From contig JARGXX010000109.1 of the NCBI GenBank assembly GCA_030374765.1, forward strand, positions 806,001 to 870,000: a stretch of DNA of 64,000 nt. The letters are read 5' to 3'. The position numbers and the translations under genes are program-made. The stretch comes from Agarophyton chilense. Lineage: Eukaryota; Rhodophyta; Florideophyceae; Gracilariales; Gracilariaceae. Below the pieces are notes generated by a model. The model was not told the origin of the DNA, ran no database searches, and saw only the letters and a list, made by a program, of their open reading frames with translations. This document shows, piece after piece, positions 22,343-56,010 of the stretch (the first letter of the stretch is position 1; every line of letters begins with the position of its first letter).

Positions 22343-23497
22343 TTACTGATTATCACATAGGAAGAACTCCGTCCAATATTTCGGGAACGGGTCGTTAACC
22401 AACGCGGACCCGATGTAGAAGATCGCCGGTAGGAGCTCCACAGGGCAACCACGAGGACTCTCGATCGCCGCTAAATGCTCCGGAATACCGATGTAGCGCT
22501 TGAAGCGCGCGTTCCGCCGGATGCGGTCAATCTCGATCATTTGATACGGCACCAAATAGCCCAAACGTGATCGAGTACGACGTTCCCAACGGGAATAATC
22601 CGAATAGGGAATGTCACGCTTTCGAAGGAAGCAGAACTCCGCACGGAGAAGAGGTTGCTGAAAGCAGAGAGCTGCATCACGCACACCGCGCACACCGCGC
22701 CAACCGCTAACATCGACTTCAACGAGTGTCTTGATAACCGAGTAACCTTCAGCGTCGGTACCGGCTTTCCAGGTATCTGGTTCCCAGTCCTGCAGGAGGA
22801 GAACCGTACTGATGAGTCGGTGAAGACGCTGGTAAATCAGCTTGGTGAACCGCGTACGGGCTTCGGACAAGGTTTCCGTTCAACATCGCGCAAACGCGTT
22901 GTTTGGAAAAGCAATATGGCTCGCCCAGTCGTCGCTATGAATCTCGTGTTTTGGAATACCGTCAGGGAAGTACCCACCGTGTACATACAGTTGTATCAAC
23001 GCATCATCGTGGATAGCAACTAGATCAAACCAGGGCGCTTGCGCGAAAAGTTCAACGTTGTCGAGAGGATCTCGTCCATAGAAATCCGCAGGGTGGGGGT
23101 AGCTCCACTGAGCACGACGAGAAGGAGCTCGAATCACACCCGCAGAGGAGACGTAAGCCGCGTTCAGCATCGGAACAACGGTTGGCTGAGGTAACGGTAC
23201 CGACCGGAATCCGGTGTACGTGGTTGGGAACGAACGGTATGGACCGAGTTGAGCAGTAGGCTGCGACGCAGAACCAGTAGTGTTTGACGGAGCCCCAGAA
23301 GGCACATCCTCAGAGGAGGGCTGAAACGGGTTGGACCCGGCGTTCGGATCCATCGCGAAAGATCGGGCTGAAGAGCGCTGAGGAACAGAATGCTGTTGAG
23401 AACTGTAAGAGTTGGTTGTGCAGCGAGGAATTCGTGATGATGATGAGTACCCAGAACACCGGTCCGACTGCGTATAAACGCTTCTTGCGTCCCCCAT
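22343..23497 (-). pseudogene. Antisense gene aORF of E1 (one in-frame TGA, C-terminus missing)
   Basis: From ATG 23497 the minus strand is open for 385 codons apart from one TGA (22880-22882), which probably replaced CGA because the E2 counterpart has Arg there. The first 115 residues are Ser/Pro/Gln-rich. A conserved part follows with DPLDNVELFAQAPWF, LLRAEFCFLRK, RSRLGYLVPYQMIEIDRI and GCPVELLP. Each block recurs in the antisense genes of E2 (38095-39963) and E3 (54680-56010). Compared with them it lacks the last part, including the LID-x-I-x-x-x-DW block, ending abruptly at 22343. I know no family with this sequence; there is no signal peptide, membrane helix, zinc motif or nuclease motif. 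It faces pol across a purine-rich spacer and starts 25 bp from the 3' LTR, which may supply its promoter. Confidence 0.75.
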
Positions 23498-23521: not shown

Positions 23522-24188
23522 TGTAGTATTCTACTATGTCTGGGAATCCGATAGGATGATTTTTCGCGAAGTTGCGGTTGAAACTCATAAGTGAGTGATG
23601 TCATCAAACTTGTGATATGAAACGGCACACCGCGTAGAATGCCAGGAGGCAGGGTACATTAGTGGGACACGTGGTATCACGAGTGGACTGGCTTGCAACG
23701 ACGCATGTAGTGGCGATCCACGTGGCAGGTTTCACTACCCTTTGTAGCTAGACGTCCATTAGGGACCATACCCATTCAGTGGTTTGGCTAAGTGGCTGAA
23801 CACTGGGTATTATTTATATATTTATTTGGGCACTCACCCTGGCACACAGTATATAGTGCACCAGAGGTGAGCGCCGACTCCAAGTAAAGGAGACAACATA
23901 GGCATCATGACTATTCTGTTCCTCGCTTAGGATTCCTTAACCGGAGATCCGGACGAGCCATAATAGATATTCAGCCCCCAACCACTTCACGAGCCGTCTC
24001 GTACCTACGTTCCATCAACGTTTTACAGTTGCACTGCTCACCCTCGCTGGCGAGTAGTTGCCTTACACCCCACTTCCAGCTCGCTGGTGTGGTAGCTCTA
24101 CCACCCCTTTTACTTCGCCGCAAGCGACCCATCGGCAGTCCGAACACTGTCGCAGGTGTCTACTCTCTCCGTTAGAGCAGATACTACA
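23522..24188 (+). repeat. 3' LTR of E1 (full length)
   Basis: The 667-bp LTR begins TGTAGTA and ends TACTACA, perfect 7-bp inverted ends. It is followed by CTTGG (24189-24193), one half of the E1 target duplication. Confidence 0.92.
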
Positions 24189-25700
24189 CTTGGAAACGAA
24201 TATTACCCGACTTGAGAGGTGTCGATCAGATGAATCGCTTGCCCATGAGGTGTGTGACCAGCTCATCCGTCTTCGGTGGTTGATGCTTCTTCAATGACGA
24301 AGACTGACCGTTTCGGTTGAACATTTGTCTCTTTCGGTGTAGGGGTAACAGTCCTTTTCTCTATTAGTAGCGTATCTCTTAAGCACTACACATAACGCGC
24401 CAGTGCGTCGTAATACACATTACAGTTTGCACAAAGGTAGTTCTTTACCTGCGACCTTATCCGTTGTCAATGACATCAGCATAAATTGACTTCAGCGTCG
24501 TGGTAGTAAGAAAGCTACCTCATCGAGACGCCGTCGCCCAGAGAGAGCGTGCGTAATCTAATTCGGTTTGTCCTGCTCGTTGACGGGGCGTAAGCACCTC
24601 AGGGTAGGCCTCCTAAATCACCTCATTAGTTGCATAGGTTTCCGAGAGAAAGTTCACCACCTCTCGGTAGGTAGTCAGCATTTCCGTCTGTTCATAATCC
24701 ATCGCCCTGGTACTGCCCTGTAAGCGGCTGTGTACCATGTCGCCAGACTGATTTTTGAGGTAAAGCAGAAATAACCACATCGCGGCACCTTCTCAAATCC
24801 CATTATGGTCAAAAGCTCTCTTGAACCTCCGAAAGAGTCGGTGGTAGCGATGCGGTCATCTCCGGAAAAACGCTTATCCCCCACTTGGAAACTAAGCTTC
24901 CGGGAATACTTATTTATCTTCTGAGCCACCTCTTGGGTAAACTCACAGTTCTTGTTCTCCAACTCATGGTTTTGGTAGTCGACCGCCTCTGTAAAAAGGT
25001 CGATCAACGGAACCATCACCTTTAGTGCAGCGCAATTACTGGTGGGTCAGCGTACTGGTCTCAACCTGAGGTAGCGTGGTACAGCGCGTCCTAAGGTTCG
25101 AATCCTTGACAGCCCCACTCCTAGAGTACTTGGTGAAATGGGCTGGTGTTTACTGCGTAGTCCTACAGGTTGGAGCTACGGAAACAATGGCTCGAAGACC
25201 AATTGGTGGAACTAATGTAACAAAGAGGGTAATTTAGTATACTAACGGTGCCTACCCTACTCTAAGAGAGAAGCGTCACTCGAGGCAAGTAAATAGCAAT
25301 GGAGAGGTGCTGGGATCTCCCTGGAACTGTAATGATAATCTTTTACACTAATTAAAATAAAATATTAACCTAAATGAGCCCAGCTGAGGTCAGCTAGTAC
25401 ATGTGGCGTTTGTAAGATACCTCAGGCCCCGGCAGTTTACAGGGCTCAACCGTTATCATTGCTCCTTCACACGTAGGTCGACATCGTTGTCGGAATCTGA
25501 CTCCGACGAGTCACACCGTTTGGTCTTACCCTTGCAGTTATTTTCCCCTCCTTACGACAGGAATCCTTCATGACTTTCTGTGAACCTCTTCGGTTGTTAT
25601 CTGTTGACCCACCAGATTCCGTTTCCGAGCTCGAAGAGTCAGGATCCGATCAGTACCCCTTTGTCTTTCACCTTAAGAACGAGTAGCACTTGTTACATAC
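24189..25700 (-). pseudogene. Gag of element X (minus strand), interrupted by E1
   Basis: The minus strand shows an acidic Ser/Asp-rich linker (about 25690-25480), then capsid blocks. These are VAQKINKYSRKLSFQVGDKRFSGDD, SRELLTIMGFEKVPR and EVVNFLSETYAT followed by a QTELDYARSL block, matching in order the capsid blocks of E1 and E2. Frames are broken several times. The reading runs into the CCAAG at 24193-24189, and if E1 is removed it continues in frame into GNIRFQ-VPTDRVQYLVGY at 12450 onward. About 400 bp around 25040-25450 do not match gag and may be a further insertion containing a B-box-like GGTTCGAATCC at 25095-25105. Confidence 0.7.
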
Positions 25701-28021: not shown

Positions 28022-29087
28022 TTGCTAATGGATGAACTACAAGCATACTTTCGTCTCGAGTTAACCACTTCGCTCCACCGCCTAAATCACCTTCATGATT
28101 ACTTCTGTACATCAGAACTACTAGGAAATGACTTTTTCAAGAAGACCATGGCGAGAGATACATTTCTAAACATTCGTGCAGCGTTACGAACGTATGCTAC
28201 GTATGACCCGAACGTTGCCGTTTTGGATCCATTGTGGCACAGTCGTCAGGTTTTGGAGCATTTTGGGAGGAATGCAGCTCTGTTGGTGGTTCCTGTGGGT
28301 GTGAGCTGCTTAGATGAAAACCCTGTCAAATGCAAGGGCCGAACTTCCTTGAGGACTTACATGAAGGCCAAACCGGTACAGTTTGGGATAAGGTTTTATG
28401 CAGTCGTAGGATGGTCCCATGCATACCTGCATAGTTTTCAAAACAAAGGCTCTGAGAACAAAACTGGACAGACGGCAGTTCAACGGTACACAAATGGGTT
28501 TCGAAACTTACGTGGCGCAGTAGAACGAAAAGTTGATGGAACGCTTATTAAAAAGTATACAGCTTTTGCTTTATGGTGCGCGCAAATGGCGCATCAAACG
28601 CAATTACACCCCACTGGGAATGAAGGACGCTTGATGGTTATGGACAGTTTTTATACACGGCATGTTCTTGCCCGTCAACTGTATGAGCGACGGAGAGTGT
28701 CACGTTAGTGGAACAGTTAGGTTTAACAACGTCGACGGTGTCAATCGTCCTTCGTTGAAAGAGGCAATCGAGAATCTCAAGCACTCTGAAAGAGGAGATA
28801 GTCGTCTAGTGCATGCGTATGACAAAGGCAACGGAACGGCATCATCTGACACGGTGGCACAGAAGGCGGGATTCATTGTGTTAAAGGACAGCTCAGTTGT
28901 GTCCTTTTATGCAAATGACTTAGCTGATACCTCAAATCAGCGCATACACAACGGCGACGAGCACGCCGTAATGGGCGTCCACGGACTTGTCCCGTTACAA
29001 CAGTGGACAGGCGTACAGTCAATGCAGAAGACCACAATGCAAGTTCCTTCGAAAATAGTTGCTTATAACTTGTTCATGAACGGGTTG
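28022..29087 (+). pseudogene. piggyBac-like transposase, N-terminal and central part
   Basis: This shows the family order MARDTFLNIRAALRTY, then LDENPVKCKGRTSL with the first catalytic Asp, then KPVQFGIRFYAVVG, then VMDSFYTRHVLARQL with the second Asp, then GTVRFN and VLKDSSVVSFYAND. A one-base frame change near 28695 separates the second-Asp block from GTVRFN. The frame begins at a TTG at 28022 (first ATG 28028); an open stretch upstream suggests the true N-terminus lies further 5' but is degraded. The reading ends in NLFMNG, where the reverse LTR starts at 29088. The rest of the protein resumes at 41076. Family members cut and paste at TTAA without leaving footprints. Confidence 0.85.
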
Positions 29088-29788
29088 TGTAGGACAACGC
29101 TTGGAGCGGAGACACCACGAAGATGTTCGGGATCTTCCTCTCTTGAGAGACACGCCTCAGGCGGAGGAGACGCGTCCCAGCGGAGCACAGAAACAGAGCC
29201 ACTCTGGAAAGGCACGACGGAGTCGGGTGTAAGACCGAGGCCAATCCGGCGGGATATACCTAGAGTGTTTAGGTGAGCACGGCACAGTCCGGGGTATGAC
29301 CACTCCTAGGCGGAGCGGTATCAAGGCGATTGTCGGAAAAGGGTCGAGGAAACACTCGTATGAGGTGGACGAGCGGGGTGAGTGGGGCGGCCACTCACGA
29401 GAGCTAAAAAAAAGAACAGGAGGAAAACGGGGGCGAAACCCTATGCAGGGGCGAGACTACGACAAGTGTCGGCGATTAAATATGAACCCACGGTGGTGGT
29501 AGCACTCTGGACGACAGAAGAAGTGGATGAAATAACGTGCGACGGGCGCTCACGCAGTGGGCGGTGAAGACGCGCCGAAGGCGAAAAGTTCAGAGCCAAG
29601 ACTCTTTCCTTGGGATCTCCCAAGAGGGTGTTTACTGGGAAGCAGTGCTCAACCTCCTAAGTAGTGTGGCGCGCGGCCCCTGACAGTGGGCGTGCCCCCG
29701 AAAAATAGACACTAAATAGCGATGGCGTAGCTAAATAAATACTAAAAATTACTAAATAATACTAACCATTAGGTAGAATCCGGGCCAC
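29088..29788 (-). repeat. E2-family solo LTR, reverse, left piece
   Basis: It starts TGTAGGACAA, the complement of the E2 LTR end, and matches the E2 LTR complement down to GGGCCAC, where E2 begins. The outer flank GGTTG (29083-29087) is repeated at 41076-41080 after the right piece (40883-41075). The two pieces total about 890 bp, the length of one complete LTR. Confidence 0.9.
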
Positions 29789-30676
29789 TGAAGGACAATT
29801 CCCTTCAAGGGGGTTTCTTCGCAGGACTTAGAGGGTTCGCTCGCTTGAGGACTAGCTTGGTCTATAACAAACTATACCGCTATTGCGTGCTGACGGCCGG
29901 TTAAGACCGGAAGTGCACACTGGTGGAACACGTAGACTGCATGGATGCCGACGCTCGAGTACGAGGCGTGCCACACGTGGCCCGGATTCTACCTAATGGT
30001 TAGTATTATCTAGTAATTTTTAGTATTTATTTAGCTACGCTATCGCTATTTAGTGTCTATATTTCTAGCGCGCGCCCACTTTTAGGGGCCGCGCGCCACA
30101 CTACTTAGGAGGTTGAGCACTGCTCCCCAGTAAACATTTTCTTGGGAGATCCCAAGGAAGGAGTCTTGGCTCTGAACTTTTCGCCTTCGGCGCGTCATCA
30201 CCGCATACTGCGTGAGCGCCCGTTGCACGTTAGTTCATCCACCCCTCTGTCAACTAGAGTGCTACCACCACCGCGGGTTCATATTTAATCGCCGACACTT
30301 GTCGTAGTCTCGCCCCTGTATAGGGTTTCGCCCCCGTTTTCCTCTTGTTCTCCTTTTTGGCTCTCGTGAGTGGCCGCACCACTCACCCCGCTCGTCCACC
30401 TCATACGAGTGTTTCCGCGCTCCTTTTCCGACGATCGCCGTGGTACTGCTCCTCCTAGGATTGGTCACACCCCGGATTGTGCCGTGCTCACCTAAACACT
30501 CTAGGTATATCCCGCCGGATTGGCCTCGGTCTTACACCCTATTTCGTCATGCATTTCCAGAGTGGCTCTGTTTCTGTGCTCCGCTGAGACGCGTCTCCTC
30601 TGCCTGAGGCGTGTCTTTCAAGAGAGAAAGATCCCGAACATCTTCGTGGTGTCTCCGCTCTAAGTGTTGTCCTACA
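29789..30676 (+). repeat. 5' LTR of E2
   Basis: It begins TGAAGGACAA and ends TCCTACA. It contains an AT-rich block of repeated TAGTATT/TATTTAG words followed by a GC-rich GCGCGCGCCC block (about 30060-30100). That pair of features is also seen in the 3' LTR and may hold promoter and 3'-end signals. Confidence 0.92.
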
Positions 30677-30841: not shown

Positions 30842-32902
30842 ATGTCGTCTAAAGACCGTCCGAGGACGCGGAGTCAAACCGGTGGACCGGAACCCTCGCA
30901 ACCATCCCGTATCCCGGTCCGTTCACGGTCTCATACCGGTGGATCGACTGGCGTGCCAGTTGGAAGGGCCTCGAGACCTCCTGTCTCTGATTAGACACCC
31001 CCAGCAAGTGGAGCATCACCGGCGTATGCCGCCGCCCAGATGCTCTCCCCTGCTAGGGACGTCACTCTCCATCCCAGCTTTGCAGCTGTGGAAGAGCAAC
31101 TCCGCTCTATGCGGGAAGCTCAAGTCATCCTTGCAAAGGAGTTCGATTCCCTTCGCAAGAAGGTAAATGACACTGCTACGCAGGATTTTTCTGAGGACCT
31201 CCGTGTCCTCCGTGCGGATGTGAACTCGATTCGAGAGTCCCTTGGTGGACCCTCGGCTTTTGTCAAGGACGTCGCGGACAAGTTCTCGCGCGTCCGAAGC
31301 CGTCTCGAGACGTTGGAACAAACCCTGATGTCGGGGAATGATCCGGCCGAGCCGGTTGCAGTATCCCACAAGGAAAATAAGGGAGAGAACCGCCAGGCTC
31401 GAAAGAAGCGAAGGAACACGGGTCCCGAACAGTCAGACTCCTCATCCTCGGAGTCCGACTCTTCTGATTCATTGGTGGAAGTAGCTCGCCGTGAGCGTTC
31501 CTAACGCTCTAAGTGGTCAACAGCCACCCATGGTGTGATCTGCGCTCGCACGAACGGAAGGAAGCATACAGGTTTGAAGGAGCTGAAACCGACCAATTCG
31601 CTCTTTAAGAAGCTCCTATCATACCAGTACTACCGTTTGGAGGACTTCTCTTTGGATCGTACACCCCGTGGTACGGGAAGAGTGAAGGACTGCATTAAGC
31701 GAATGCAGCTCTCACTACGAAACCAGTTGTTTTCTGGAGAAGACCCAATAATGGTCTTGGATTTCTTAGCACGCTTTGTCGCGGAAGCTGACATCCTTGG
31801 AATGAACGAGGGACAGGCCTACATTGCCTTACCGTACTTCTTACGTGGGCTTGCAGAATACCAGTTTCACTCTGTCAGAGGTTCATCACGCGCCTCCGAA
31901 GGAGGGGTCACATGCTGGCCTGAAGCAGTTCAGTACCTCCTGAGGTCGTATGCTACTAACTCTGCCATTCAGCAGGCTATACTAGCCCTGCGAGACACTC
32001 GCCAACGTCCAGGAGAGTCGGAAACCAATTATTCGTCGCGCCTTAACAAGGCCTTCCACCGCTGTGGAAATGTTTACTCCGCTGAAGAGCGTTGTACCAT
32101 GTTTTTCGATGTTCTGGACCCAGCGATCCGGACTCTTGTTGCTCGACGTCGAGAAGATAGACCTAAAGCCACGTATTTGGAACTAGTGCAGTTTGCTCTT
32201 GCAGAAGTTGAAGCCCTGCGCGCACGCACTCCTGGCTCCAGGGTTAGGTCTGCAAAAGCGTTGATGTTACAACCGGGTACCCCGTCAGCTTCGATGATTG
32301 ACGAACAGGCCTCTCGAAGGGATTATGATAGCCTGCAGCTAGCCCAAAGCGACGTTCATTCCATCCCGACAACGGAGTTACCCTCAACCTTGGACGAATC
32401 ACAATAAGTGGTTGAGGATGACACGCTACTCTATGCGGATAATGGTCGCGTTCGTGCGCCACGCGTCCCACACGAGAGTGGTAATGTCCGCTTTTCGCGT
32501 CCTGGTTTGAGAGATACCCGCCCCGCGGTGAAGTTCGCCGAGCCTCGCCACCCAGCACCGGCTTCTGGTCTGATTTGTCATCTCTGCTACAAACCAGGCC
32601 CTACTTCTCCAAAATGTGTGTTGTCTCTCCGAGAATGGGCACCAGTCGTAGTCAATTACGAGGCCCTATCCCCGGAGGACAAAGCAGCTGTTCCGATTTC
32701 ATCGTATATCCGTGCTCGAACGGATGTTCCGCGTCACGTGTCACTTCCCCGACCTCTGGTCGTACTTGCACCGGAATCCCGTGTCACCGACGTGGTCGGT
32801 CACCCCACCGCTTCTGCGAAACCTTCTGGACCTGATGTCCAGGCGTTGCCCGCTCAACGCCCTGAGCAGCCGCCTCCGGCGGAGCAGGCCCAGAAAAACT
32901 AA
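30842..32902 (+). pseudogene. Gag of E2: capsid and degenerate zinc knuckle
   Basis: A single frame from ATG 30842 to the stop at 32900-32902 is broken only by three nonsense codons: TAG 30992, TAA 31502 and TAA 32405. It has a basic Pro/Ser-rich N-terminus, a helical and probably coiled-coil segment, a Ser/Asp-rich linker, and a capsid domain with YIALPYFLRGLAEYQF, WPEAVQYLLRSYAT and RCGNVYSAEE. The nucleocapsid reads CHLCYKPGPTSPKC, where the knuckle His is Pro. The capsid blocks are close to those of E1. Because the frame is otherwise continuous, this copy was probably intact not long before the stops arose. Confidence 0.88.
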
Positions 32903-32935
32903 ATGTGGGAGTCTCCTCTCAAGGAGGGGCGCTCT
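32894..32935 (+). promoter_or_regulatory. Candidate -1 frameshift signal between gag and pro-pol of E2
   Basis: Gag ends AAA AAC TAA (32894-32902). The pro-pol frame continues as CTA AAT GTG in the -1 frame. A stem with arms CTCCT and AGGAG follows at about 32913-32926. The placement mirrors E1. Confidence 0.5.
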
Positions 32936-35900
32936 TAGAGTCGAGGTCGACGGTGCCCGAGGCGTCCAAGCCTCGCTCCCCGGTCAAAATCCTTTCAAGG
33001 AAAGAGGCCGTCAATGACGTGAACTCGGAACACTTTAGTGTTCTGCGTCGTCCGTGGAAACGTGTTTCCCATAACCGGTTCCCAGATAGAGGTTTGGTGA
33101 TGGCCAATAGAAACTACAATGTCTATGCCAACCTTGACCATTCACCCCAGTTTATGGTGCGACACCTTACCGTCTTAGACACTGGTGCCGGTCCGAACTT
33201 TGTCGTGGAGGAAGTGTTACCGCCTGCTTTGCAGTCTAGGATCCGCCGTGACCACGCCCAGGAGGTCGCTGACGCGAACAACAAACCGTTGGATACAGTG
33301 GGGTTCATAGAACTGGTAGTCCGCGTTGGCGCTCGCGTGGTGAAACTCGAATTCGTCGTATGTCGGAAATTCGCCGCCCCAGTCATCTTGAGTTGCGACT
33401 TTTGCGATCGCTTCGTCGAAGCAATCTTTCCCCGCCAACGGAGTGTCGAGATGGAGGATGGATCGTCCACTCCGATCGTTCGTCGTCCGCATAGGCGTGC
33501 CACGAAGAAGCATGTCCCGCTACCGGCAGCACAGGAACCTGGACCGGATAACCGTTAATCTAATAAGCTCCGCGCCGCAGCGTCGTTGTGCGTCCCGCCT
33601 GAGTCCCAAATGATGGTGAAAGTAACCTCCCGTCAACACGGACTCCGGGTCTTGCAACCCTTGTCGTCAATTTATGACAGGCACAGCCTCGCAATTGCGA
33701 ATGGAATCGTCCATGTGGGGCCAAACCAACCGTTACACGTGCTGATCGCCAATCTAGGGACTGTACCCCAGTCTCTGGTGAAGAACCAAGTGGTTGGGTC
33801 CGTCATGCCGCACCCCATCGCTATGGTGCCGACAAAGCTGATTGCAGCTGACGTTCTCGGACTCGTTCACTCTAAGGAGGGGGACAGCCCGGAACCAGTT
33901 TCATCACCGGTACCCGGGGTTCAACCTGTAACATCAGGGATGCAGCCCGTTTCAACGAGTGGTGACCCTCCCGATCCAGTCCAAGAACTCGAGGACCTGG
34001 ATCTCAGCCACTTCCCGGAGTCATACCGCCATCGATTGCGAGAACTCTTGAAGGACTTCAACACTATGTGGGACGGCTCCCTTGGTGAGATTGCCACTAC
34101 GGAACACCGGATTGATTTGCTACCGGACACCCGACCCATCTCTCAGCACCCATACCGTGCCGGACCCGCCGCACGCGCGGAGGAAAAGGCACAAGTGGAT
34201 AAAATGCTTCGAGCAGGAGTCATTGAACCGGCTCAGTCACCGTGGGCTTCTCCAGTAGTTCTGGCTCCAAAGCAGGATGGTTCCTGGAGGTTTTGCGTCG
34301 ATTACCGTCGGTTGAATGCAGTCACCGTCAAGGACGTGTATCCAATCCCAAGAATGGACGATTACATTGACTCTCTGGGCACCGCCACCATCTTTACAAC
34401 CCTGAAAGCCAATTGGGGATACTGGCAAGTTCCGGTAAGGAAGCGAGACCAGGATAAAACCGCTTTCGCGGGTCACTCCGGTCTCTACCGTTTCAAACGG
34501 ATGCCTTTTGGTCTTACCAATGCCCCCGCTACTTTCAAGCGAGCCATCGACATCCTATTGTCTTGCTTTAAATGGCGTACCTGCCTGGTCTACCTGGATG
34601 ACATAATCGTCTTCTCAGATAATCTGGACAAACATCTCACTCATGTGAGGTATATCATGACCACGCTAAGAGATGCGGGTGTCACTCTTAAGTTGAAGAA
34701 ATGTGACTTCTTCACGGACAACGTGAAGTATCTCGGCCATGTTATCCGTCCAGGACGTGTTACAATCGAGGAGACTCGTGTTAAGTCACTCAAAGAGGCT
34801 AAAGAACCGCTGACGCAAACCGAGATTCGTTCCTTTCTGGGACTGGCGAACGTCTACCAACGATTCATCCCGCACTTTGCGGAAAAGGCTGCACCGTTAA
34901 ACGCGCTTTTGCGGAAAGGCCAACCACCAAAACTGGACCCCTTAACCCCCGTTCAAACGGAATCTTTCAACTCTCTTAAGGATTCTGTCGTCTCCGCCCC
35001 GATCCTCTCGTTTCCCAAGTCTGGAAGTCCCTTCACCGTAGATACGGACGCCAGCGACTACCAAGTAGGCTATGCACTGTTTCAAACTGCATTCAATGGG
35101 GAAAGACGCCCCGTAGGGTACTGGTTCCGATCGGTAAAATTCCACGAGAAGAATTACTCCGTCTCGGAGAAGAAATGCCTTGCAGTAGTGTGGGCATTAC
35201 GAACGTTGCGCCCCTATCTCATGGGTAACCATTTCATCGTTTTCACGGACCACGCATCGCTTCGATGGCTGCTCTCCATCTCGGAGCCTTCAGGCCGCTT
35301 GATGCGTTGGCGTTTCCGTCTAACGGAATTTGACTTTGACGTGCAGTACCGAAAAGGATCGTGCAACACCCAAGCCGATGCTCTCTCCCGCCTGGTCACT
35401 ACTGGCGAAGCATTACCCGTCAAAGACGATGAAATACCCTGCTTTGCAGTGAATGGCGACGTCGCCACCATCAAGGACGAGGAACGAGACACGGACTCTT
35501 CAGATTGCAGTTCCGAATGGGACGACTCTCTTCTCTCGGAAATTTCCGAGACACCCTTACCAGGGAACGTCGTGCCTATGAATCCAGAGGAGGTGAAACG
35601 GGAGCAATTCGCTGACCCGTTTTGCGCGAAGGTCCGCGCTCAACTCAATGGAGGAGGTACTCTCCCTTTTCAGGTGAATGACGCCGGATACCTTGTACGG
35701 ACCGTCGGATCGCACCCACAAATCGTGGTACCACATAACCTCCAGTCGAGAGTATTGCGGTTGTCGCACTACTCCAAACTTAGTGGACACGTCGGGGGAC
35801 GGAAACTTTACCTCACCCTACGCCGTAACTTCTACTGGCCTTCCATGGCAGTGGACTGCTACGCAACTGTGCGGTTTTGTACCGGTTGCGCTTGGAACCG

Positions 35901-37882
35901 TGTCAAACTCCGCCGTCATGCGACGAAGTTGAAGCTGTTTCCAGCTCGCGCTCCATTGGAGTTTGTGGCCATCGATATACTCGGTCCCTTCCTTACCACT
36001 AAGCGGAATTACAAGTTCTTACTCAGAATCACGGATCGCTTCTCAAAGCTGGTCCGGACCGTACCGTTACGGAAGATCTCCGCTATGAGCGTGGCTCAAG
36101 CCTTCGTCCTACACTAGGTCTTCGTCTACGGTCCACCAGTCAACCTCCTCTCCGATAACGGGAGACAGTTCGCCTCTTGTTTCTTCGAGGATGTGTGTCG
36201 CATATTGGACATGAAGAACCTGTTCACGACCACTTACCACCCCCAAACTAATGGGCAGGCCGAACGGTTCAATCGGACATTACTTGCGACACTCCGTTCA
36301 TACGTTGCAGACCACCGCAAAGATTGGGACTTGTTCACTGATGCGCTCACATTTGCGTACAATACGCAGAAGCACAGGAGAACTGGATTAACGCCCTTCG
36401 AGCTAGTACTGTCCCGTATCCCACCGCCTGTGGTGCTGGAACCACAGCCCACGCTGGATACCTTTCCGTCACCGACTGCTTACCGCGAAGCGTGGAAAAC
36501 TTGGCTCACGAAGCTCGTTCCCGCCGCACGGCGTTCAATAGGCCGAGCCCAGGCCGCTTACAAGCGTGACTTTGATACCAAAGCCCCTCGCTCGCCGCCA
36601 CATTTCGCCCCCGACGGTTATGTATTCATCCGCAAGGAGTATTGGAACCCAGAGAAGGAGAAACGCCACAAGCTGTCACCCGTTGCCAACGGCCCCTTTC
36701 GGGTTATTTCGGTGGCTCCCGACACTGTCGTTGTTGTCCTTGCTGGTAATCACGAATGCATCTCCCACGATCGCGTGGTATCGGCTCCTCCGCCGTTAAA
36801 ATCCCAACCTACTGGTGTGACTGCTCCCGTTGAAACGGATTCATCTACCCCCTTCCCCCAGGTCCACTCCGCGTCCCTACGCGTTACAACACCCATCTAG
36901 AGGTTTTTCTGACCTTCCGCTACCCGCGGCGCCCAACCCGAAAGGAATCGTGTCGCGCATTTGTCGCTCCTCCCCAGTTTACCCGACGGACACCAACTTC
37001 GGTGCACCGTCTAAGGAGGGGGAGGCGCCCGACAGCCGTCGGAATCCGGTCCATACCATCGCTGGAAACGCCGCACCGTCGCGTGTCGTTCTTCGCCCAT
37101 CAGGGGTGCCTGATACCGACGTCCTGCACGACTCGACGCAGTCGCTATCCAATCCTCAGAACGCAGCTGTGGATAACGTCACCAACACTCGCCGAGGTGT
37201 CACCACACGTGCAATACGGAATGAAAATGCGCTCGACGCGCTGCAGCCTGATACAGTACGAGTGGACGACGCACCGCCAAGTACCCCGCACAGAGAGGCG
37301 GATACATCCACGGCGTCACGTGACCACACGGAACCTCGCCGTGGGACAGAGAGGTGCGACAATGCGCCACCGCCCCAGCGAATCTCACCGCCGAAGCGAG
37401 CTTCACCACGCCGATTAGCGGAACGACCACCCGGGTTACCCGCTGGTGTGGGCCCTCCAACCGGAGTGGGAAGCGCCGAAACAAGCCCGGCACTTGGGGA
37501 AAATGAACCACCGAAGTCAGGTCGACATTCCACTCAGCCGAGGACTGCCTTGCGCGCTACACGGTCCGATCGGAGCGAAGCCGCCCAACGCGTGATCACT
37601 TTGGTACCCCCGGGCTCAGGACGGGTACCACCCGGAAATAGCACCACCGTCATACGGGATGGCCGGGGAGTGTACCGACAAGAGTTCGTGGTCGGACGCA
37701 TTCTGGAGCACTCCTACCACCCAAAGGGGTATCTCCAATACTTGGACGGTTGGTACGGGTACGGCCCCAAATGGGATTCAGACGAACCGATAGAGCACCT
37801 ACCTCGGTCAAAGGTGGTAAATTATCATCGTCGTACTATCACGGCTTTGCCGGCTACCATAGACCGAGCCCAAGTGGGATAA
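32899..37882 (+). pseudogene. Protease-RT-RNase H-integrase-chromodomain polyprotein of E2
   Basis: Protease: VLDTGAGPN (about 33173-33200). RT: VDYRRLNAVTV, YRFKRMPFGLTNAPATF and the intact box YLDDIIVF (about 34590-34612). RNase H: VDTDASDYQVG to DHASLRWLL. Integrase: HHCC zinc motif (about 35770-35900), AIDILGPF, LSDNGRQF and GQAERFNRTL. The tail is Pro/Arg/Thr-rich and ends in a chromodomain-like block, FVVGRILEH to EHLPRSKVVNYHRR (about 37687-37840). Breaks: TAA 33556, TAG 36115 (E1 and E3 have Trp here, so TGG to TAG) and one frame change near 36830-36900. RT and integrase catalytic residues are all present. Confidence 0.9.
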
Positions 37883-38094: not shown

Positions 38095-39963
38095 TTAGTT
38101 GGAAAAACCCGGATTGCCGTGCGCGCCACCCGAATCGCTAGAGGAGTTACTCCCGCCGGTCAGGCGTGCCACGAGGGCGTCTCTCATCGCACCGATGTCG
38201 CCGCTCGCCGCTTTTGCGTTCAGTCCAACACCCCGAAGGAAAAGGGAGATCACGACCGCCTCTGGGCGTATGGGAACCTCGATAACTTCCGGCTCGTCCG
38301 GCAACGCCGCCGCCACTGGATCGACCACCGCAACTGCGTGAGTCACTCCCTGCGCTGGCTGCGCCGCAGTATCGGCACCATCGGGGTCTCCCACGTCTTC
38401 CATGACCTCGTCGCCACGGTATTCGCCCGCCTCCTCCGGGAGATCATCACCGCCATAGGCGTAGTAGATGTCATTCGAGTTGACAAACCCCACGGGGTGC
38501 CCGTATGGTATGCCTCGCGGAGCCATCCGGAGTGCCGACGCCTCCGCCTCGGAGATCTCATGCTGCTCCCATGGGTTAAGGAAGATGAAATCTCCCGCCA
38601 ACAGCGTGCGACGCCCCGGAGACCGATCAGCCCCACCGGCTTCTTGACCACGGCCGCTCTGCTGGACAGACACGACAGCCCAGTCGACACGCCCAATGAT
38701 GTCGATGAGCTCCTGAGCTTCATCAGCGTTACTGACACCTCCAAGAGGGAGTTGAAGGTCCAGCTGTCGGATGTAACCACGCAAACGCGGAGGAAGATGC
38801 CACAGTCGATACTGGTCGTAGGCTTCCCACAAGATGTACGCCGCGGCTCGGACTACCCATTCGGTTAGGACCACGGACCATAAGCTGGAGTGCGGATCCT
38901 CGATGAGGTACGAGCCCAGATAGGAGACGACTGGAGGCAACTCCACGTGACATCCCCGGCACACCTCGACGGAGGACCACCACCCAGGCAGGGGAACGTA
39001 TCGCCCGAACTGATAGAAGGGACTAATCCGGTTTATCTCCGTGTTCTGATAAAGGACAAGGAACCCAAAGCGGGATCTGCTCCGACGCTCCTCGCGGATG
39101 AAGTTCTGTAACCACCGATATCGGAACTCACGACGAAGGTGGCGGAACTCGGCACGAATGATCGGACGGACCCAGCAGATCGCTTCTTGACGCGCTCGCG
39201 GTTGACCGCGCCATGCGCAAGTTTCCAAGGCCGCAAGGCGGTCACAATAGCCGATCTCATCCTGCGTCCGGTACATCCGTAGGTCGAAGCCGAATTCGTC
39301 GGGGATGGGGTATTGAAAGTTTTCCCGGTTGATCCGTGAGTAGCCGATGCGGACGAAGGTACAATGCGCCTCTTCCGCCGACTCGCGCCTTCGCCGCCGA
39401 ATCGCGTCAACGGGAACCGCCACACGGCGTCGCCAGTCCCACGAAGTGGTGATCAAAGCCGGCAGCTCGCCCGGGAGACGCGCATTGCCATCAGCATACG
39501 CGGCCACGAGTTCTTCGTCGAAGACAGCTGTCGGATGGAACCACGGAGCTCTCCGGAGAATCGCCGCATGTTGACGCGGGTTAAACCCGACGAGTTCGTC
39601 TTAAGTGGGCAAGGTGTCCTCCGCAGGAGTGATGTGGCTTGAAGCTTCAACGAGACCCCGGGATCGGCTCGGCGCGGTTGACGAGGCACTCCCCCGCGGA
39701 AGGGGAGCCGTATGGAAACCGGAGAAGTAACCCCGGCGGAGATTGTTACCAGCGTTCATCGGGAGTACTGGTCGCCGAGGTATCAGGATGTGGTCGCGGG
39801 AAGTAGGCGTACGATGCGGAAGAGCGCTCGAAGTTCGAGGAGTGGTTACCGCGTTGGTGCGTTTGTCGTTCGGTTGTGCAGCTCTGCCTTCGACAGTCGA
39901 GTGGTCGCTGGACGCGTTGCGCGGCTCGCTCTTATGCAGGTTGGACCGTTGCCTCCCCGCCAT
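38095..39963 (-). pseudogene. Antisense gene aORF of E2 (622 residues, one in-frame TAA)
   Basis: From ATG 39963 the minus strand is open for 622 codons except one TAA (39601-39603). The first ~125 residues are Arg/Ser/Pro-rich. The conserved core follows: RRAPWFHPTAVFDEEL, IIRAEFRHLRREF, RSRFGFLVLYQNTEINRI and GCHVELPPVVSYLGSYL, then SNADEAQELIDIIGRVDW. After it comes a long acidic Gly/Ala/Asp-rich tail. The core matches aORF of E1 and E3. No known domain, transmembrane helix or catalytic signature is apparent. The initiating ATG lies 36 bp from the 3' LTR (an open TTG at 40008 would start inside the LTR). A frame this long opposite no sense gene, in a GC-rich element already carrying several nonsense mutations, argues for real coding history. 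Confidence 0.8.
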
Positions 39964-39984: not shown

Positions 39985-39998
39985 TAAGCAGGGGGGTA
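39985..39998 (+). other. Polypurine tract of E2
   Basis: AAGCAGGGGGGTA directly precedes the 3' LTR start TGAAGGAC (39999), in the same position as in E1. Confidence 0.8.
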
Positions 39999-40882
39999 TG
40001 AAGGACAATCTTCAAGGGGGTTTCTTCCCAGGACTTAGAGATTTCGGTCGCTGGAGGACTAGCTTGGTCTATGACAAGCTATACCGCTATTGCGTGCTGA
40101 CGACCAGATAGGACCGGAAAAGCACACTGGTGGAACACGTGGATTGCACGGATGCCGACGCTCGAGTGCGAGGCGTGCCACACGTGGCCCGGATTCTACC
40201 TAATGGTTAGTATTATCTAGTAATTTTTAGTATTTATTTAGCTACGCTATCGCTATTTAGTGTCTGTTTTTCGGGCGCGCGCCCACTGTCAGGGGCCGCG
40301 CGCCACACTACTTAGGAGGTTGAGCACTGCTCCCCAGTAAACAATCTCTTGGGAGATACCAAAGAGGGAGTCTTGGCTCTGAACTCTTCGCCTTCGGCGC
40401 GTCTACACCGCATACTGCGTGAGCGCCCGTCGCACGTTAGCCCATCCACCGCTCTGTCGACCAGAGTGCTACCACCACCGTGGGTTCATATTTAATCGCC
40501 GACACTTTTCGTAGTCTCGCCCCTGTATAGGGTTTCACCCCCGCTTTCCTCTTGTTATCCTTTTTGGCTCTCGTGAGTGGCCGCCCCACTCACCCCGCTC
40601 GTCCACCTCATACGAGTGTTTCCTCGCTCCTTTTCCGACAATCGCCGTGGTACCGCTTCTCCTAGGATTGGTCACACCCCAGACTGTGCCGTGCTCACCT
40701 AAACACTCTAGGTATATCCCGCCGGATTTGCCTCGGTCTTTCACCTGACTCCGTCGTGCTTTTGAAGAGTGGCTCTGTTCCTGTGCTCCGCTGGGACGCG
40801 TATCCTTCGCCTGAGGCGTGTCTCTCAAGCGGGAAGATCCCGAACATCTTCGTGGTGTCTTCGCTCCAAGAGTTGTCCTACA
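39999..40882 (+). repeat. 3' LTR of E2
   Basis: Its 884 bp align along the full length with 29789-30676, with scattered substitutions of several percent by eye. It ends TCCTACA and is followed by GCCAC (40883-40887), the right copy of the target duplication. Confidence 0.92.
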
Positions 40883-41075
40883 GCCACGTGTGGCACGCTT
40901 CGCACTCGAGCGTCGGCATCTGTTCAGTCTACGTGTTCCACTAGTGTGCACTTCCAGTCCTAACCGGCCGTCAGCACGCAAAAGCCGTTTAGCTTGTCAT
41001 AGACCAAGCTAGTTTTCAAGCGAGCGAACACCCTAAGTCCTGCGAAGAAACCCCCTTGAGGGGCATTGTCCTTCA
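40883..41075 (-). repeat. E2-family solo LTR, reverse, right piece
   Basis: This is the complement of the first ~190 bp of the E2 LTR, ending TGTCCTTCA. Together with 29088-29788 it makes one whole LTR interrupted by E2. GGTTG at 41076-41080 completes the target duplication of this older LTR. Confidence 0.9.
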
Positions 41076-41566
41076 GGTTGGACCGATTTGACCAGTTTAG
41101 GTCAATATCGGCCACCGTAAGGAAAGAGCAGCGAGTACCGGTGAGTATACTCACTTTTGTTTTTAACGCCAGTATTCTAAATGGACATGCTGTTCTCAAG
41201 ATAAGCTCTCCAGGACAGGCTATAATCGATATAGGGATAATGAAGAATGGGGTTATACTGCAACTGGTTAGTGACCATATTGGTTACAAGCAGCGAAAGG
41301 CCACACTACCTCCTTTATCTGGAACCAGTGGACTCTGCAACCGTCAAAGTGGTGCAGACCGAAAACCCAACCCGATGCACATCTTGCTCGAAACAGAAGA
41401 CAAGAAGAGCGTTTACTGTGTTCCCTGTCGTGTTGTTTCGACAACAGGAGGCCACAGAGGCTACACCACCTATTCATGTAGTGAATGCAAACTTGGGTTC
41501 CATTTCAACTGTTTTTCCTTCTACCACTATAAGGATCTCTTCCTAAGAACACGTCCTGATGTGTAA
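41076..41566 (+). pseudogene. piggyBac-like transposase, C-terminal part
   Basis: The reading resumes exactly after the LTR with LDRFDQFRS, containing the third catalytic Asp, then RKEQRVPVSI and FNASILNGHAV. It ends in a Cys-rich domain with CVPC, CSEC and an HFNC-type pair, like the C-terminal cysteine-rich domain of piggyBac transposases. Removing 29088-41080 (with one GGTTG copy) joins the two halves in frame, so the nest landed just before the third Asp codon. The stop is at 41564-41566. Confidence 0.85.
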
Positions 41567-45469: not shown

Positions 45470-46333
45470 CTACTCCCAATCATAGCGAATGCGATTGGTG
45501 CGCTTTAAACGAATGAGGGCTGAATCTAGAATTGTCATTAGCGAAGCATAATCAGGTTTCTCAGCAAAAGAGAGCTTCCAAACTTGTGTTGCGTACTCTT
45601 TGAGGCCCCAAGTCCCGGAACATAGAGATTCTATAGATATATCATTCTTCATATGCCCCATGTCACTGACACCCAGCCGTTTCCAGGGAAGAGTGCCCTT
45701 CACAAGATAAACCAATACGTATGCTAGTGACTTTAAATCATCTCTTCGCGACTGAACTTTCTCCGCATGTGCTCGCGGCGAGGCAAACAAGTGGGTGCCA
45801 TAGAAACTGTATATAGAATCGCTTATGTGTTGGGAACCATGGCCACTAACATAGCTGTGAGAGCAACCAAAGTCCACTAGATAAAACCTGGCAAGTCGAC
45901 CTTGCTGTTTTGATAGCATAATGTTGGAAGGCTTCACGTCACCATGAAGGACGCCCTTTGAATGGATATACTGCAACATACGCACAAGTTTGATACCGAT
46001 CTTGAGCACGGTTGGCATCGAAAACGAACCGCCATTCTTCCGTCTCAAATCATCAAGTGATGTTTCGAAGCGGTTCATAACCATTACTTTGTGTCCTCTG
46101 TGTGTTGAGAAGTGATATATTCGGGGAAGAAACTCTCTGTTGTGCTTTGTACATCCAAGCCGTTTGTAAGCTCGATACTCACGGTTTAGAGATGTTGAGC
46201 CTCGACTTGCTTTCACGGCGTACGTCCGACCGTCTCCATCATGGGCGGCATATACAGAGCCTTCACCTCCGCTGTCGATCTTTGACCGAATGTAGTATGT
46301 GTTATCGATAGAATCATTTGAGTGTAGACCCAT
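45470..46333 (-). CDS. Casein-kinase-1-like Ser/Thr protein kinase
   Basis: The 287-residue single-exon protein is essentially a bare kinase domain: glycine loop IDSGGEGSVY (about residues 18-27), Lys in YAVKA (about 39-43), catalytic loop HGDVKPSNI (about 134-142), DFG (about 159-161), then GTHLFASPRAH and SRRDDLKSLAYVLVYLVKGTLPW. The last block is the CK1 signature, which replaces the usual APE region. CK1 enzymes are constitutively active acidophilic Ser/Thr kinases. The tail after the domain is short, so no targeting extension is seen. The HGD in place of HRD and SGGEGS glycine loop are mildly divergent, so a fast-evolving CK1-like paralogue is likely. The ATG at 46333 gives a normal N-terminus. 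Confidence 0.92.
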   Translation of the reverse strand: MGLHSNDSIDNTYYIRSKIDSGGEGSVYAAHDGDGRTYAVKASRGSTSLNREYRAYKRLGCTKHNREFLPRIYHFSTHRGHKVMVMNRFETSLDDLRRKNGGSFSMPTVLKIGIKLVRMLQYIHSKGVLHGDVKPSNIMLSKQQGRLARFYLVDFGCSHSYVSGHGSQHISDSIYSFYGTHLFASPRAHAEKVQSRRDDLKSLAYVLVYLVKGTLPWKRLGVSDMGHMKNDISIESLCSGTWGLKEYATQVWKLSFAEKPDYASLMTILDSALIRLKRTNRIRYDWE

Positions 46334-47398: not shown

Positions 47399-47506
47399 TA
47401 TAAAACGGAGAAGCGCCATCCGTCACTGTTGACAAAGCTCGTTCCTCGCGTCAAACGATCTGTACGAAACATTATAGAGATTTCCAAACAAGCTATCTCA
47501 TCCAAA
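47399..47506 (+). promoter_or_regulatory. Putative core promoter of the glyoxalase-fold gene
   Basis: TATAAAA at 47399-47405 lies 108 bp before the ATG at 47507. The leader contains no earlier in-frame ATG, only a TTG at 47429. Confidence 0.5.
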
Positions 47507-47911
47507 ATGACCTCTCTAACAATCGGCGTAAGTCATGTCGCGTTGGCGGTATCGACTCTCTCGAAAACCGTTCAATTCTTCGAGGAGCTTGGCTTCAAAA
47601 AAGTCGGCGGCGATCCCGATTATCCGTCTATCTTCGTATCGGACGGATGTACGATCATCACCGTCTGGCAGTCCAAATCGAAGAATCCCACGCCCTTTGA
47701 TCGCACCCAGAACATTGGCCTGCACCATCTAGCAATCAAATGCCCAACCTTGGAAGCTTTGAACCAGACGTACGAGAAAGTGAAAGGAATGAAGGGCACC
47801 AAAATTGAATTTGCGCCAATGCTAATGCCAGATCTTCCGTTCACGCACTTCATGTGCTACGAGCCGTGTGGTGTTCGGATTGAGTTCACCTATCACCCTC
47901 CATCGGAGTGA
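47507..47911 (+). CDS. Glyoxalase-fold (VOC superfamily) protein
   Basis: The 134-residue product fits a single VOC module of two beta-alpha-beta-beta-beta units: GVSHVALAV with FFEELGFKK in the first, LHHLAIKC with RIEFTYHP in the second. His in SHVAL, His in LHHLA and Glu in RIEF occupy the positions of metal ligands in this superfamily (glyoxalase I, dioxygenases, bleomycin-resistance proteins). Which reaction it catalyses cannot be read; a lactoylglutathione-lyase or small-molecule lyase role is possible, probably as a dimer since one module gives half a site. I chose ATG 47507 over the open upstream frame because that part has no ATG and the fold begins a few residues after it. Single exon, no defects. 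Confidence 0.88.
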   Translation: MTSLTIGVSHVALAVSTLSKTVQFFEELGFKKVGGDPDYPSIFVSDGCTIITVWQSKSKNPTPFDRTQNIGLHHLAIKCPTLEALNQTYEKVKGMKGTKIEFAPMLMPDLPFTHFMCYEPCGVRIEFTYHPPSE

Positions 47912-52523: not shown

Positions 52524-52525
52524 TA

Positions 52526-54023
52526 CAGTCCTATTCATAAGTATACGCACACCCCCGAAACGTCCACCGAACCGTTTAAAAAGACAAAAGCACGTCTTTT
52601 GTGACGTGTGGTGGTGTATATTCTTTTTGTTAAATCACTAAAAGCTCGTTTCCTCTCACTGTATATCTATTTTCTGCAGCACATCGCATCAACTGTTTTC
52701 CACCCTCGTCATAAAAAAAAGCACAATTTAATATTTTACTTACTGTAGAACCCCTAGGCCGTATCAATACTTTGTTTTACATCCATTAGCTCTCAAAACA
52801 GCCATGCAACGCTTTGGCATGCCTCTGCTGAGCTTGTAAAGACCTTGGAGGTCTATGTTCTCCCATTCTTTCAATAAAGCTTCTTTTAAAGCATTTTTCG
52901 ACTTATATTGTCGATTATCTGCGTAAACCCTGTAAGCAAGAATACTCCATAGATTTTCAATAGCATTCAAGTCAGGAGAATGGGCCAGTCACTCCAAAAG
53001 TTCAATAGCTTCTTCATTAAACCACGCTTTTGAATACCTTGAAACGTGTATCGGTGCATTTTCTTGCTGAAATAAGAGCTCTTCTGAGTGATACATGTCA
53101 ATAAATGGTACTAAATGTTCATTTATCATCTTCACATATATCTCTGAGTTCATATTTCCTTAAATGGAAACCAAAGGTCCTTTACCAAACATAGAGAAGC
53201 AAGCCCATATCATAACCGAAAAACCTCCATTTTTGCGCATCGAAATAATCTTTTCATCATGTCGTAGATCATGCCAGTAGTAGCTCCAGCCATCGGGACC
53301 ATCACCATTAAATTTTTTTTCGTCGCTCCAAACAACCATATCCCACTCTTTAGCATAAAATCGATTGTATTGCATGGCCTATTCCAAGGGAGCAATTCTG
53401 TGAGATTCAGTGATTAGTGGTGCTGATTTTTTCTTCTTATACTCAAACGTGTCCAATCTATGGATTGCTCTTGTGACTGTTGAAATCGATACTTCAAGTT
53501 GCAAGTCATTTTTTAGACGTTTTGCCGAAGAACTTTGTTTTGAAAGTGTTCTTTTTAGTTGTCTTTCATCGTGTTTGTATAATTTTCGTGGCCTCCCGGG
53601 TCTTTTCTTTTGAATATTAGATGTATTTCGTTTCAGATATCCGTGGATACTAGATTTGGATCTTCCCAGCTGGTTTGCAATTTTTTGCAATGAAAAATTA
53701 GCGGTGTAGAGCGCTATAATTTGTGCTTTCTCTTCGCTGGTTAGTTCCTTGTCTCTAGGCATTTTTGTGATGGTATATGTTGTTCAGTGTGAACTGTAGA
53801 GCAACGTTCTGTTTTATTCTAACAAACTCATGAACATTTGTATTTCATTGAGCGCAGTACTAAGAAGTGCGCGCTTTTTTTGTAATCGTGCGTATATTTT
53901 TGCACTACGTGTGAAATTGTATTTTGTGTAATGCAAGAGATTTAATAGGAATATAACCAATATGTCTTGGAGCCTTTACATATGTGCTAAACACGCCCGT
54001 GCGTATATTTTTGAATAGGACTG
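52526..54023 (-). mobile_element. Tc1/mariner-type DNA transposon
   Basis: The ends CAGTCCTATTC (52526) and GAATAGGACTG (54023) are inverted repeats, flanked by TA on both sides (52524-52525 and 54024-54025). Total length is 1,498 bp, normal for the family. The transposase is on the minus strand. Confidence 0.92.
52764..53762 (-). pseudogene. Tc1/mariner transposase with three in-frame stops
   Basis: One frame encodes a paired-type helix-turn-helix N-terminus (LQKIANQLGRSKSSIHGYL, then GRPRK), followed by the catalytic domain: first Asp in WSDEKKF, second site in QQENAPIH and Glu in PDLNAIENLW with about 34 residues between the last two. The second site is Glu where the family has Asp. Stops are a TAG near 53378, a TAA near 53160 and a TGA near 52990 at a conserved Trp position (before LAHSPDLN). 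Otherwise the frame is continuous. Such enzymes cut and paste at TA dinucleotides. Confidence 0.9.
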
Positions 54024-54025
54024 TA

Positions 54026-54533
54026 TTCTAAAGCGTGGTTTAATGAAGAAGCTATTGAGCTTTTGGAGTGACTGGCCCATTCTCCTGACTTGAATGCTAT
54101 TGAAAATCTATGGAGTATTCTTGTTTACAGGGTTTACGCAGATAATCGACAATATGAGTCGAAAATGCTTTAAAAGAAGCTTTATTAAAAGAATGGGAGA
54201 AAATAGACCTCCAAGTTCTTTACAAGCTCAGCAGAGGCATGCCAAAGCGTTGCATGGCTGTTTTGAGAGCTAATGGATGTAAAACAAAGTATTGATACGG
54301 CCTAGGGGTTCTACAATAAGTAAAATATTAAATCGTGCTTTTTTTTATGACGAGGGTGGAAAACAGTTGATGCGATGTGCTGCAGAAAATAGATATACAG
54401 TGAGAGGGAACGAGCTTTTAGTGATTTAACAAAAAGAATATACACCACCACACGTCACAAAAGACGTGCTTTTGTCTTTTTAAACGGTTCGGTGGACGTT
54501 TCGGGGGTGTGCGTATACTTATGAATAGGACTG
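54026..54533 (+). mobile_element. Second Tc1/mariner copy, inverted and missing its 5' two thirds
   Basis: The plus strand reads KAWFNEEAIELLE, stop, LAHSPDLNAIENLW to the transposase end, then the terminal repeat ending GGACTG at 54533 with TA at 54534-54535. It carries the same TGA before LAHSPDLN as the full copy and an extra single-base deletion in the run after CGACAATATGAGTCG. It abuts the full copy at TA 54024-54025. Confidence 0.88.
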
Positions 54534-54679: not shown

Positions 54680-56010
54680 GTATCCTACGGACCTTCAAAT
54701 CGATCTTCCGGGATGAGTCCACATGTTGGATCCAACGCCTTCCACTCTTCCTCTCTTCCTCTAAAGATGTGCCTTCTGAGGCTCCATGGAACGCTGTCGG
54801 TTGCGCTGCAGACTGCTGCTCTACCCAGTCAATACCGTTCCTTCTACAGACCATACCCGGGATACTGAATCGCACCGTTACCACAGCCAACCGTGGCTCC
54901 GATTTCGAACGCGGCTCGCGTTTCCTCAGACTGTGTTATTCGAGCTCCATCTCAACGTGCTCAGAGGAGCAATCCACATCTGGCAGATTTTTCTGGACAA
55001 GACCTTCTTGATAATGTAGAACGTTTCGCTTAAGCGCCCTGGTTTAATCCAGTTTCCATTGTCGATAAGGCGTCATTAAAAGAGTATGTATACTGTGTAT
55101 ATTTTATAGATGTCATTTCGGAACACGCGATATACTGCTACGACTGGAAAAGCCATGTCACTTTTCCAGACAACGCCATTGCGTGATCTTCTACGGTAAC
55201 AAAGTCCGAAGCCTGTAACCACTTTCTCATGCTGATATACCAGCATCTGCACCAGTTCATTAGTACAGTTCTCCTCCCACAGGATTATGAACTAGATACC
55301 TGGAAGGCCCGTACAAATATTGAAGGGTACTGGTACATCGAGATATTCGTCGAAGTCGACGTAATCGGTTGGCGCGGTGTACGCAGTGTGCGTAACGCAG
55401 CTCTCTGCTTCCAGCAATTTCTGTTGTGCGCGGAGTTCAGCTTCCTCCGGAAGCGATATATCATTTAATTGGATTATTGCCGCTGGGACCGTTGTATTCG
55501 ATCACGATTGGGCTATTTGGTGCCGTACCCGATGATTGAAATTGATCGCATCCGACGGAACGCGCGCTTCGGGTGCTACATGGGCATACAGAAACAACTG
55601 GTGGCAATCGAGAGTCGTCGTGGTTTCCCTGTGGAGCTTCCCTCAAAGATATCCTACACTAGATCCGCGTTGGTTAACGACCCAACCTCGGGATACTGGG
55701 CAGTGGTTCATACCGAGAGTATCGCCAAGATGGCTGTCTTCCTCCTTCTTGATGCCTATAATATCTTTTCGGTTTGGTACATGTCGTTCAGAAGCGCTAA
55801 GGTAGGCGAGAGAACTCGACCTTTCCCTTTTCCTGCGATTCCGTGCGAACCACGCCGACTTTCTCCATTTTGTGGATTTGATCGACAGCATTGATTGGTC
55901 TCGATTTTCATCTGAACAATCCTTTCGGATACAACGTGAAAGACGTCACTACTATTCTCTTGTGCAAACAGCAAGTGCTGCATATTTCGTCTGGTACGAC
56001 CCCTGAACGC
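54680..56010 (+). pseudogene. Antisense gene aORF of E3
   Basis: Several frames in series carry the whole protein: SKDVPSEAP near 54768 (E1: SEDVPSGAP), DLLDNVERFA, stop, APWFNPVSIVD (about 55003-55060), SHVTFPDNAIA, LLCAEFSFLRK (about 55430), RSRLGYLVPYPMIEIDRI (about 55500-55550), GFPVELPS, and finally NHADFLHFVDLIDSIDWS (about 55845-55900), which matches SNADEAQELIDIIGRVDW of E2. Thus E3 keeps the C-terminal block that E1 lost. The stop in FA-APWF replaces the CAA of E1. Several frame changes make it non-functional. It converges on E3 pol like its relatives. Confidence 0.75.

Follow-up and report, generated by a model that had tools for sequence, protein, structure and literature searches.

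At least two families of Ty3/gypsy retrotransposons in the red alga Agarophyton chilense (synonym Gracilaria chilensis) carry a long open reading frame that lies on the strand opposite gag-pol and is conserved as a protein. This antisense ORF (aORF) is represented in the window, the whole analysed stretch of 64,000 nucleotides, by the elements E1 and E3 for one family and E2 for another. Homologues of it occur elsewhere, and selection at the protein level is seen in a core of about 375 residues. On balance, we lean towards the view that the aORF is an accessory protein gene of Gracilariales Ty3/gypsy elements, made from an antisense RNA begun in the 3′ LTR, and that its product would be soluble and intracellular with a role in the nucleus or on RNA; this preference is based on E1 and E2.

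Organization of E2 and its antisense frame

E2 is a proper insertion, with paired LTRs and GCCAC on both outer sides (Table 1). Pfam matches along its pol frames run from RVT_1 (1.6e-32) through RNase H to Integrase_H2C2, and together with the LTRs and the target duplication they assign the element to Ty3/gypsy. The Chromo match at the integrase end (E=0.018) scores 15.4 bits and is thus below the Pfam cut-off of 25.1; no Chromo match was obtained for the integrase frame of E1 at Pfam E up to 1. The gag-like frames of E2 gave no Pfam gag match. Inverted E2-type LTR pieces adjoin the element's own LTRs on both sides (window 29088-29788 and 40883-41076). Elsewhere in the window are a transposase fragment on the plus strand (28022-28708; Pfam DDE_Tnp_1_7, E=2.6e-22), which we take to be PiggyBac-type, and two apparent host genes, for a protein kinase (45470-46333, minus strand; PF00069, 1.3e-24) and a glyoxalase (47429-47911, plus strand; PF00903, 2e-9).

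Table 1. Coordinates of the elements, their antisense frames and the third-group pieces. Positions are those of the window unless a contig is given.
Feature	Position	Strand	Remarks
E1 antisense ORF	22343..23497	-	one in-frame stop (22880-22882); C-terminal part missing
E1 3′ LTR	23522..24201	+	begins TG after GAGGGGGGTA; end taken from repeat match
E2 5′ LTR	29789..30676	+	91.7% identical to 3′ LTR; GCCAC directly before
E2 gag-like frames	31040..32407	+	two ORFs; gag named by position; selection control
E2 protease-like, RT/RNase H and integrase frames with weak chromodomain-like tail	32905..37882	+	several frames
E2 antisense ORF	38095..39963	-	622 codons and stop; ATG 39963-39961, stop 38097-38095
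E2 conserved core	38479..39603	-	frame residues about 120-495 (about 375 residues); bounds set by hand
E2 polypurine tract AGCAGGGGGGTA	39987..39998	+	adjoins 3′ LTR; read from sequence
E2 3′ LTR	39999..40882	+	GCCAC directly after; proposed source of antisense transcript
E3 decayed antisense ORF	54680..56010	+	several stops; E3 gag-pol matches on minus strand
Third-group gene copy L105	G000:C115:1748100-1750250		open over 639 codons; closest copies among the matches listed at 88-89% DNA identity
Piece where third-group pol was expected, L104	G000:C115:1743900-1746100		carries broken RT

The pol region of E2 ends at 37882, the aORF stop lies 212 nt beyond it, and the ATG is 35 nt from the 3′ LTR. 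A single in-frame stop at 39603-39601 leaves the window copy with a longest open piece of 501 codons; the same stop is present in 2 of 32 aligned rows, the window copy included. The genome searched comprises 79.8 Mb in 135 contigs. At least 40 matches were obtained with the E2 DNA query (443 candidates), at least 90 with the E2 protein query (1876 candidates), at least 40 with the E1 DNA query (909 candidates) and at least 41 with a third-group query (406 candidates); these searches picked out copies for their likeness to the aORF, a sampling that element copies devoid of it would escape. One of the 32 rows of the E2 alignment was dropped (L006, identical to L005), leaving 31 copies. The ATG is kept in 30 of these and the terminal stop likewise in 30. 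Each copy has 0-4 internal stops, five being free of them, counts that are biased low because best-similarity copies were used. In further E2 copies that were fetched, gag was found at the expected distance and on the strand opposite the aORF in 14 of 15, and RT in 15 of 20.

A frame of this length could be an artefact, either a chance open frame, such as GC-rich DNA tends to lengthen, or a mirror of sense-strand coding. When the E2 aORF stretch was shuffled 2000 times at constant composition, however, the longest stretch free of stops in any of the six frames had a median of 155 codons and never exceeded 403. The other five frames over the stretch, the plus frames among them, average 9-26 stops per copy in the 31 E2 copies, and pol has ended before the aORF stop is reached.

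Conservation between element families

The window copy of the E1 aORF is without about the last 230 codons when measured against the 611-codon copies of its family. Full-length frames in that family have about 608-611 codons, and those of 611 codons in L043, L044 and L046 specify identical proteins. The ATG is 24 nt from the 3′ LTR. Among 25 E1-family copies the internal stops are scattered, no stop position being shared by more than 2 copies, and 23 copies retain the terminal stop; here too stop counts are biased low, 20 E1-family copies having been selected in part because their frames were open over a long distance. The E3 aORF has 74% DNA identity to that of E1 over 898 nt. The sequence-only reading had described a long gene opposite gag-pol between pol and the 3′ LTR in all three elements; such a gene is real in E1, where it is truncated, and in E2, and the E3 copy is decayed. 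Two arrangements of inverted repeats were seen near these elements. An inverted E1-type LTR at window 11770-12449, 96% complementary to the E1 3′ LTR, lies about 2 kb from the 5′ side of E1, and a 98% identical inverted repeat pair (52524-53037 and 54023-54535) lies just outside the E3 aORF.

In the ungapped 898-nt block of E1 and E3, the share of mismatches is 21.7% at the first, 21.1% at the second and 34.0% at the third codon position of the aORF (p=2.4e-4). Among eight other E1/E3 blocks such periodicity was found in only one, in integrase (p=0.0041); the RT block gave p=0.18. Open copies of the E1 and E2 families (L043 and L014) were aligned over 582 codons, with 34% amino-acid and 45% nucleotide identity, and identity at codon positions 1, 2 and 3 was 0.51, 0.53 and 0.30. 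The mean BLOSUM score per column was 1.53 in the aORF frame and at most 0.76 in the other five, each of which has 8-26 stops. By BLASTP, open copies of the two families match at 38% over 419 aa (E=5e-87), which bears out the proposal that the proteins share blocks in the same order. For scale, E1 and E2 are 58% identical in RT, 48% in protease and 45-59% in integrase. The 3′ LTR regions of E1 and E2, which had been called unrelated, indeed gave no BLASTN match at E 1e-5 on either strand. The presence of the gene in two families with unmatched LTRs supports the view that it is coding, conserved and already existed before E1 and E2 diverged.

Conservation of non-coding DNA as the cause of the likeness is rejected: between E1 and E2 there is no conservation at the nucleotide level (45% identity, 30% at third positions), and selection is specific to one frame. 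Judged from these comparisons, the antisense frame is protein coding.

Selection within families

Variants found in one copy approximate mutation after insertion, and those found in three or more copies are mostly inherited through transposition; the two classes were compared as the ratio (shared N/S)/(singleton N/S). In the E2 aORF frame, silent and replacement variants numbered 262/673 among singletons and 59/66 among variants shared by at least three copies (p=2.8e-5). With copy thresholds of 2, 3, 4 and 6, p was 1.4e-6, 2.8e-5, 0.0012 and 0.2, the signal fading at six or more copies. The two other minus frames over the aORF gave p=0.6 and 0.91. Two control regions of E2 were treated in the same way. 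For RT, 16 of 21 rows were used, five rows at identity 0.37-0.78 being dropped, and the counts were 137/342 for singletons and 15/5 for shared variants (p=3.6e-5, ratio 0.13). For gag, 15 of 16 rows were used, L098 being dropped, and the counts were 112/312 and 29/16 (p=5.6e-7, ratio 0.20). On the 21 E2 copies close to the RT set, the aORF gave p=0.028. The ratio for the E2 aORF was 0.44 over the whole frame and 0.21 in the core (p=9e-8); the N tail (0.68) and the C tail (1.08) were not significant. The core of the E2 aORF is clearly under purifying selection comparable to that on gag, and the tails are unconstrained. At the 3′ end of pol (36598-37882, spanning two frames) and in the LTR region, no clear codon periodicity was found in the frames examined.

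The signal within the E1 family is weak. Singletons there numbered 235/700 and shared variants 25/42 (p=0.042), thresholds of 2 and 4 copies gave p=0.0032 and 0.23, and the core alone gave p=0.24. Purifying selection on the minus frame, on which the sequence-only reading had hinged, is thus clear in E2 and weak within the E1 family.

In favour of an artefact, a borderline signal (48/77, p=0.065) was obtained for one plus frame, whose third positions coincide with those of the E2 aORF. The sense frames are nevertheless closed and less similar between E1 and E2 than the aORF frame, and together with the shuffles and the frame-specific selection this leads us to reject both a chance frame and a sense-strand mirror; that the aORF is an artefact is hardly credible. 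A different alternative is that the antisense transcript itself is functional, in silencing or regulation of gag-pol RNA, with the protein secondary. A review (PMC7264820) discusses such transcripts of LTR elements and the regulatory roles that they may have. The strong protein similarity of E1 and E2 in spite of their dissimilar DNA, and the restriction of selection to one frame, argue against such a role, and we consider it improbable.

Properties of the predicted protein

In five proteins the distance from the APWF block to the AGD motif is 314-320 aa, and a core of about 355 residues can be taken from the APWF block to 40 residues past AGD. This core contains 32-44 Arg and 0-5 Lys in the five proteins, arginine nearly excluding lysine. 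The C tail is acidic in all five (pI 4.1), and the N tail is basic in four, that of P0011 being acidic. Of the family-invariant residues, 7 of 49 are altered in the third group described below, and the corresponding counts are 6 of 45 for P0007 and 6 of 55 for P0008.

No Pfam match better than E=0.029 was obtained for any aORF protein scanned. The TRP28 domain (PF04195) gave a match at Pfam E up to 1 in 0 of 11 members and again in 0 of 4 of a second set (P0008 and P0010-P0012, P0008 being in both), and membership in that family is rejected. A weak match to the Pfam family E3_binding in 5 of 11 members (best 0.029), which in P0008 falls inside the core at residues 340-359, was dropped. The sole nuclear-sounding match was Ish1, in one member at E=0.092. 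Searches of the PDB by sequence and by fold, the latter with a predicted model of middling confidence as query, gave nothing usable.

The place of the aORF between pol and the 3′ LTR is that of env, and an envelope-like gene in reverse was therefore weighed. A transmembrane segment is usually expected to reach a hydropathy of 1.6; the maximum over 19-aa windows was 1.22-1.45 in the five proteins, with no strongly hydrophobic segment. With the frame on the opposite strand and no Pfam match, Env is rejected as very improbable.

Relatives and a third group of genes

A relative outside the species is the hypothetical protein BWQ96_03215 of Gracilariopsis chorda (P0001), 49% identical to the E2 aORF over 98% of the query. 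In Agarophyton chilense, the unnamed proteins P0002-P0007 are 53-90% identical to an E1-family copy, and P0013 matches an E2-family copy at 87% identity along 39% of its length. P0008, P0009 and P0012 (source lgn) and P0010 and P0011 (source ena) are 40-52% identical to the query used. BWQ96_03215, P0002-P0007 and P0013 are direct homologues of the aORF, and their record names carry no link to retrotransposons. The gene had been called unrecognised. This stands in that it has no Pfam family and no functional name, but both Gracilariopsis chorda and Agarophyton chilense already have gene models for it, annotated as hypothetical or unnamed proteins. No relative was found in scans of viral and prokaryote contigs.

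Residues 1-406 of the 423 in P0007 have a 100% match in this genome, and in the search with this protein 30 places of a third group ranked above the first E1-family place. The third-group gene copy L105 is 56% identical to E1 and 34% to E2. The only RT found near it is about 2 kb away, broken and on the same strand as the gene; this RT (L104) is 32-36% identical to the RTs of E1 and E2 over most of its length, with one 111-aa stretch at 49%, and probably belongs to another element, though a different layout in this group would also account for its strand. As the RT lies on the strand of the gene, the third group was not counted as a third element family.

The aORF could be a real coding gene outside the core cycle of the element. 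An ancestral element would have acquired it in a single capture from a host or a virus, and it would since have persisted by hitch-hiking or through a role directed at the host, such as counter-silencing. To our knowledge, Ty3/gypsy elements in general do without such an antisense gene. The aORF also evolves faster than pol (34-38% identity between E1 and E2, as against the RT and protease values given above), and its tails in E2 are unconstrained. Against a capture of this kind, two element families carry the aORF and the constraint on the E2 core equals that on gag. Further, no free-standing homologue was recognised in protein database searches, each of which scored about 8000 candidates sharing most words and returned matches known without genomic context. 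We regard capture as unlikely, though deserving serious consideration, and retain the accessory protein gene as the preferred reading; constraint on the core at the level of gag suggests that the protein functions in propagation of the element.

Discussion

Since the LTR and the aORF start codon are only 24-35 nt apart, an antisense mRNA should have its 5′ end in the LTR or beyond. From this gap, the RNA would start in the 3′ LTR, and the layout is compatible with a promoter there; no TATA-like motif or poly(A) signal common to at least half of the 31 E2 copies was found. Translated from the antisense RNA, the protein would be soluble, its Arg-rich folded core flanked by a basic N tail and an acidic C tail. 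It may act intracellularly, most probably in the nucleus or on element RNA, with a part in regulation, export or assembly, in line with proposals for the aORF-3R proteins of plants. Its composition and the plant cases are perhaps a sign of a nuclear or RNA-binding regulator. The presence of many copies in one 80-Mb genome makes selection and expression directly testable.

Descriptions of antisense genes in LTR retrotransposons come mainly from plants, with one fungal case, and the genes are unexplained (PMC7264820). Among the matches listed from the open-licence PMC literature, no title concerned such genes in red-algal LTR elements. In plants, the Tat/Retand lineage has aORF-3R genes (Retand ORF4, RIRE2, Grande gene23). 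These are long antisense ORFs that follow pol and precede the 3′ LTR, are conserved among copies and between species, and have no known function (PMC7264820, PMC11963269); TRP28-bearing antisense ORFs are given for 97% of Retand clusters in the latter (PMC11963269). The red-algal aORF has the same position, between pol and the 3′ LTR in E1 and E2, and the same orientation, and is likewise conserved as a protein. It differs in its host, a red alga and not an angiosperm, and in being without PF04195. Retand is a non-chromovirus, whereas E2 has the weak chromodomain-like tail. The start codon of the aORF is close to the 3′ LTR, whereas the promoter that drives Grande gene23 is said to lie in the region upstream of that gene (PMC7264820). 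By its domain content, the aORF is a different protein in a known arrangement.

The antisense ORF of Boty (Botrytis, Sclerotinia) also lies between pol and the 3′ LTR, in a fungal element, and is likened here by arrangement and not by sequence (passage in PMC7264820). HBZ of HTLV and APH-2 are antisense proteins too; they are retroviral, and the likeness is one of arrangement only (passage in PMC11963269). For HTLV, PMC7264820 mentions a promoter of antisense direction within the 3′ LTR. A TRP28-less family in the same place and orientation, with gag-like constraint on its core, suggests that this position repeatedly gains useful genes. More tentatively, the Ty3/gypsy elements found in Gracilariales, and perhaps in a broader range of red algae, might possess an ancient and functionally required antisense gene with a new fold family and a dedicated 3′ LTR mRNA, an independent counterpart of the plant TRP28 genes and of retroviral HBZ.
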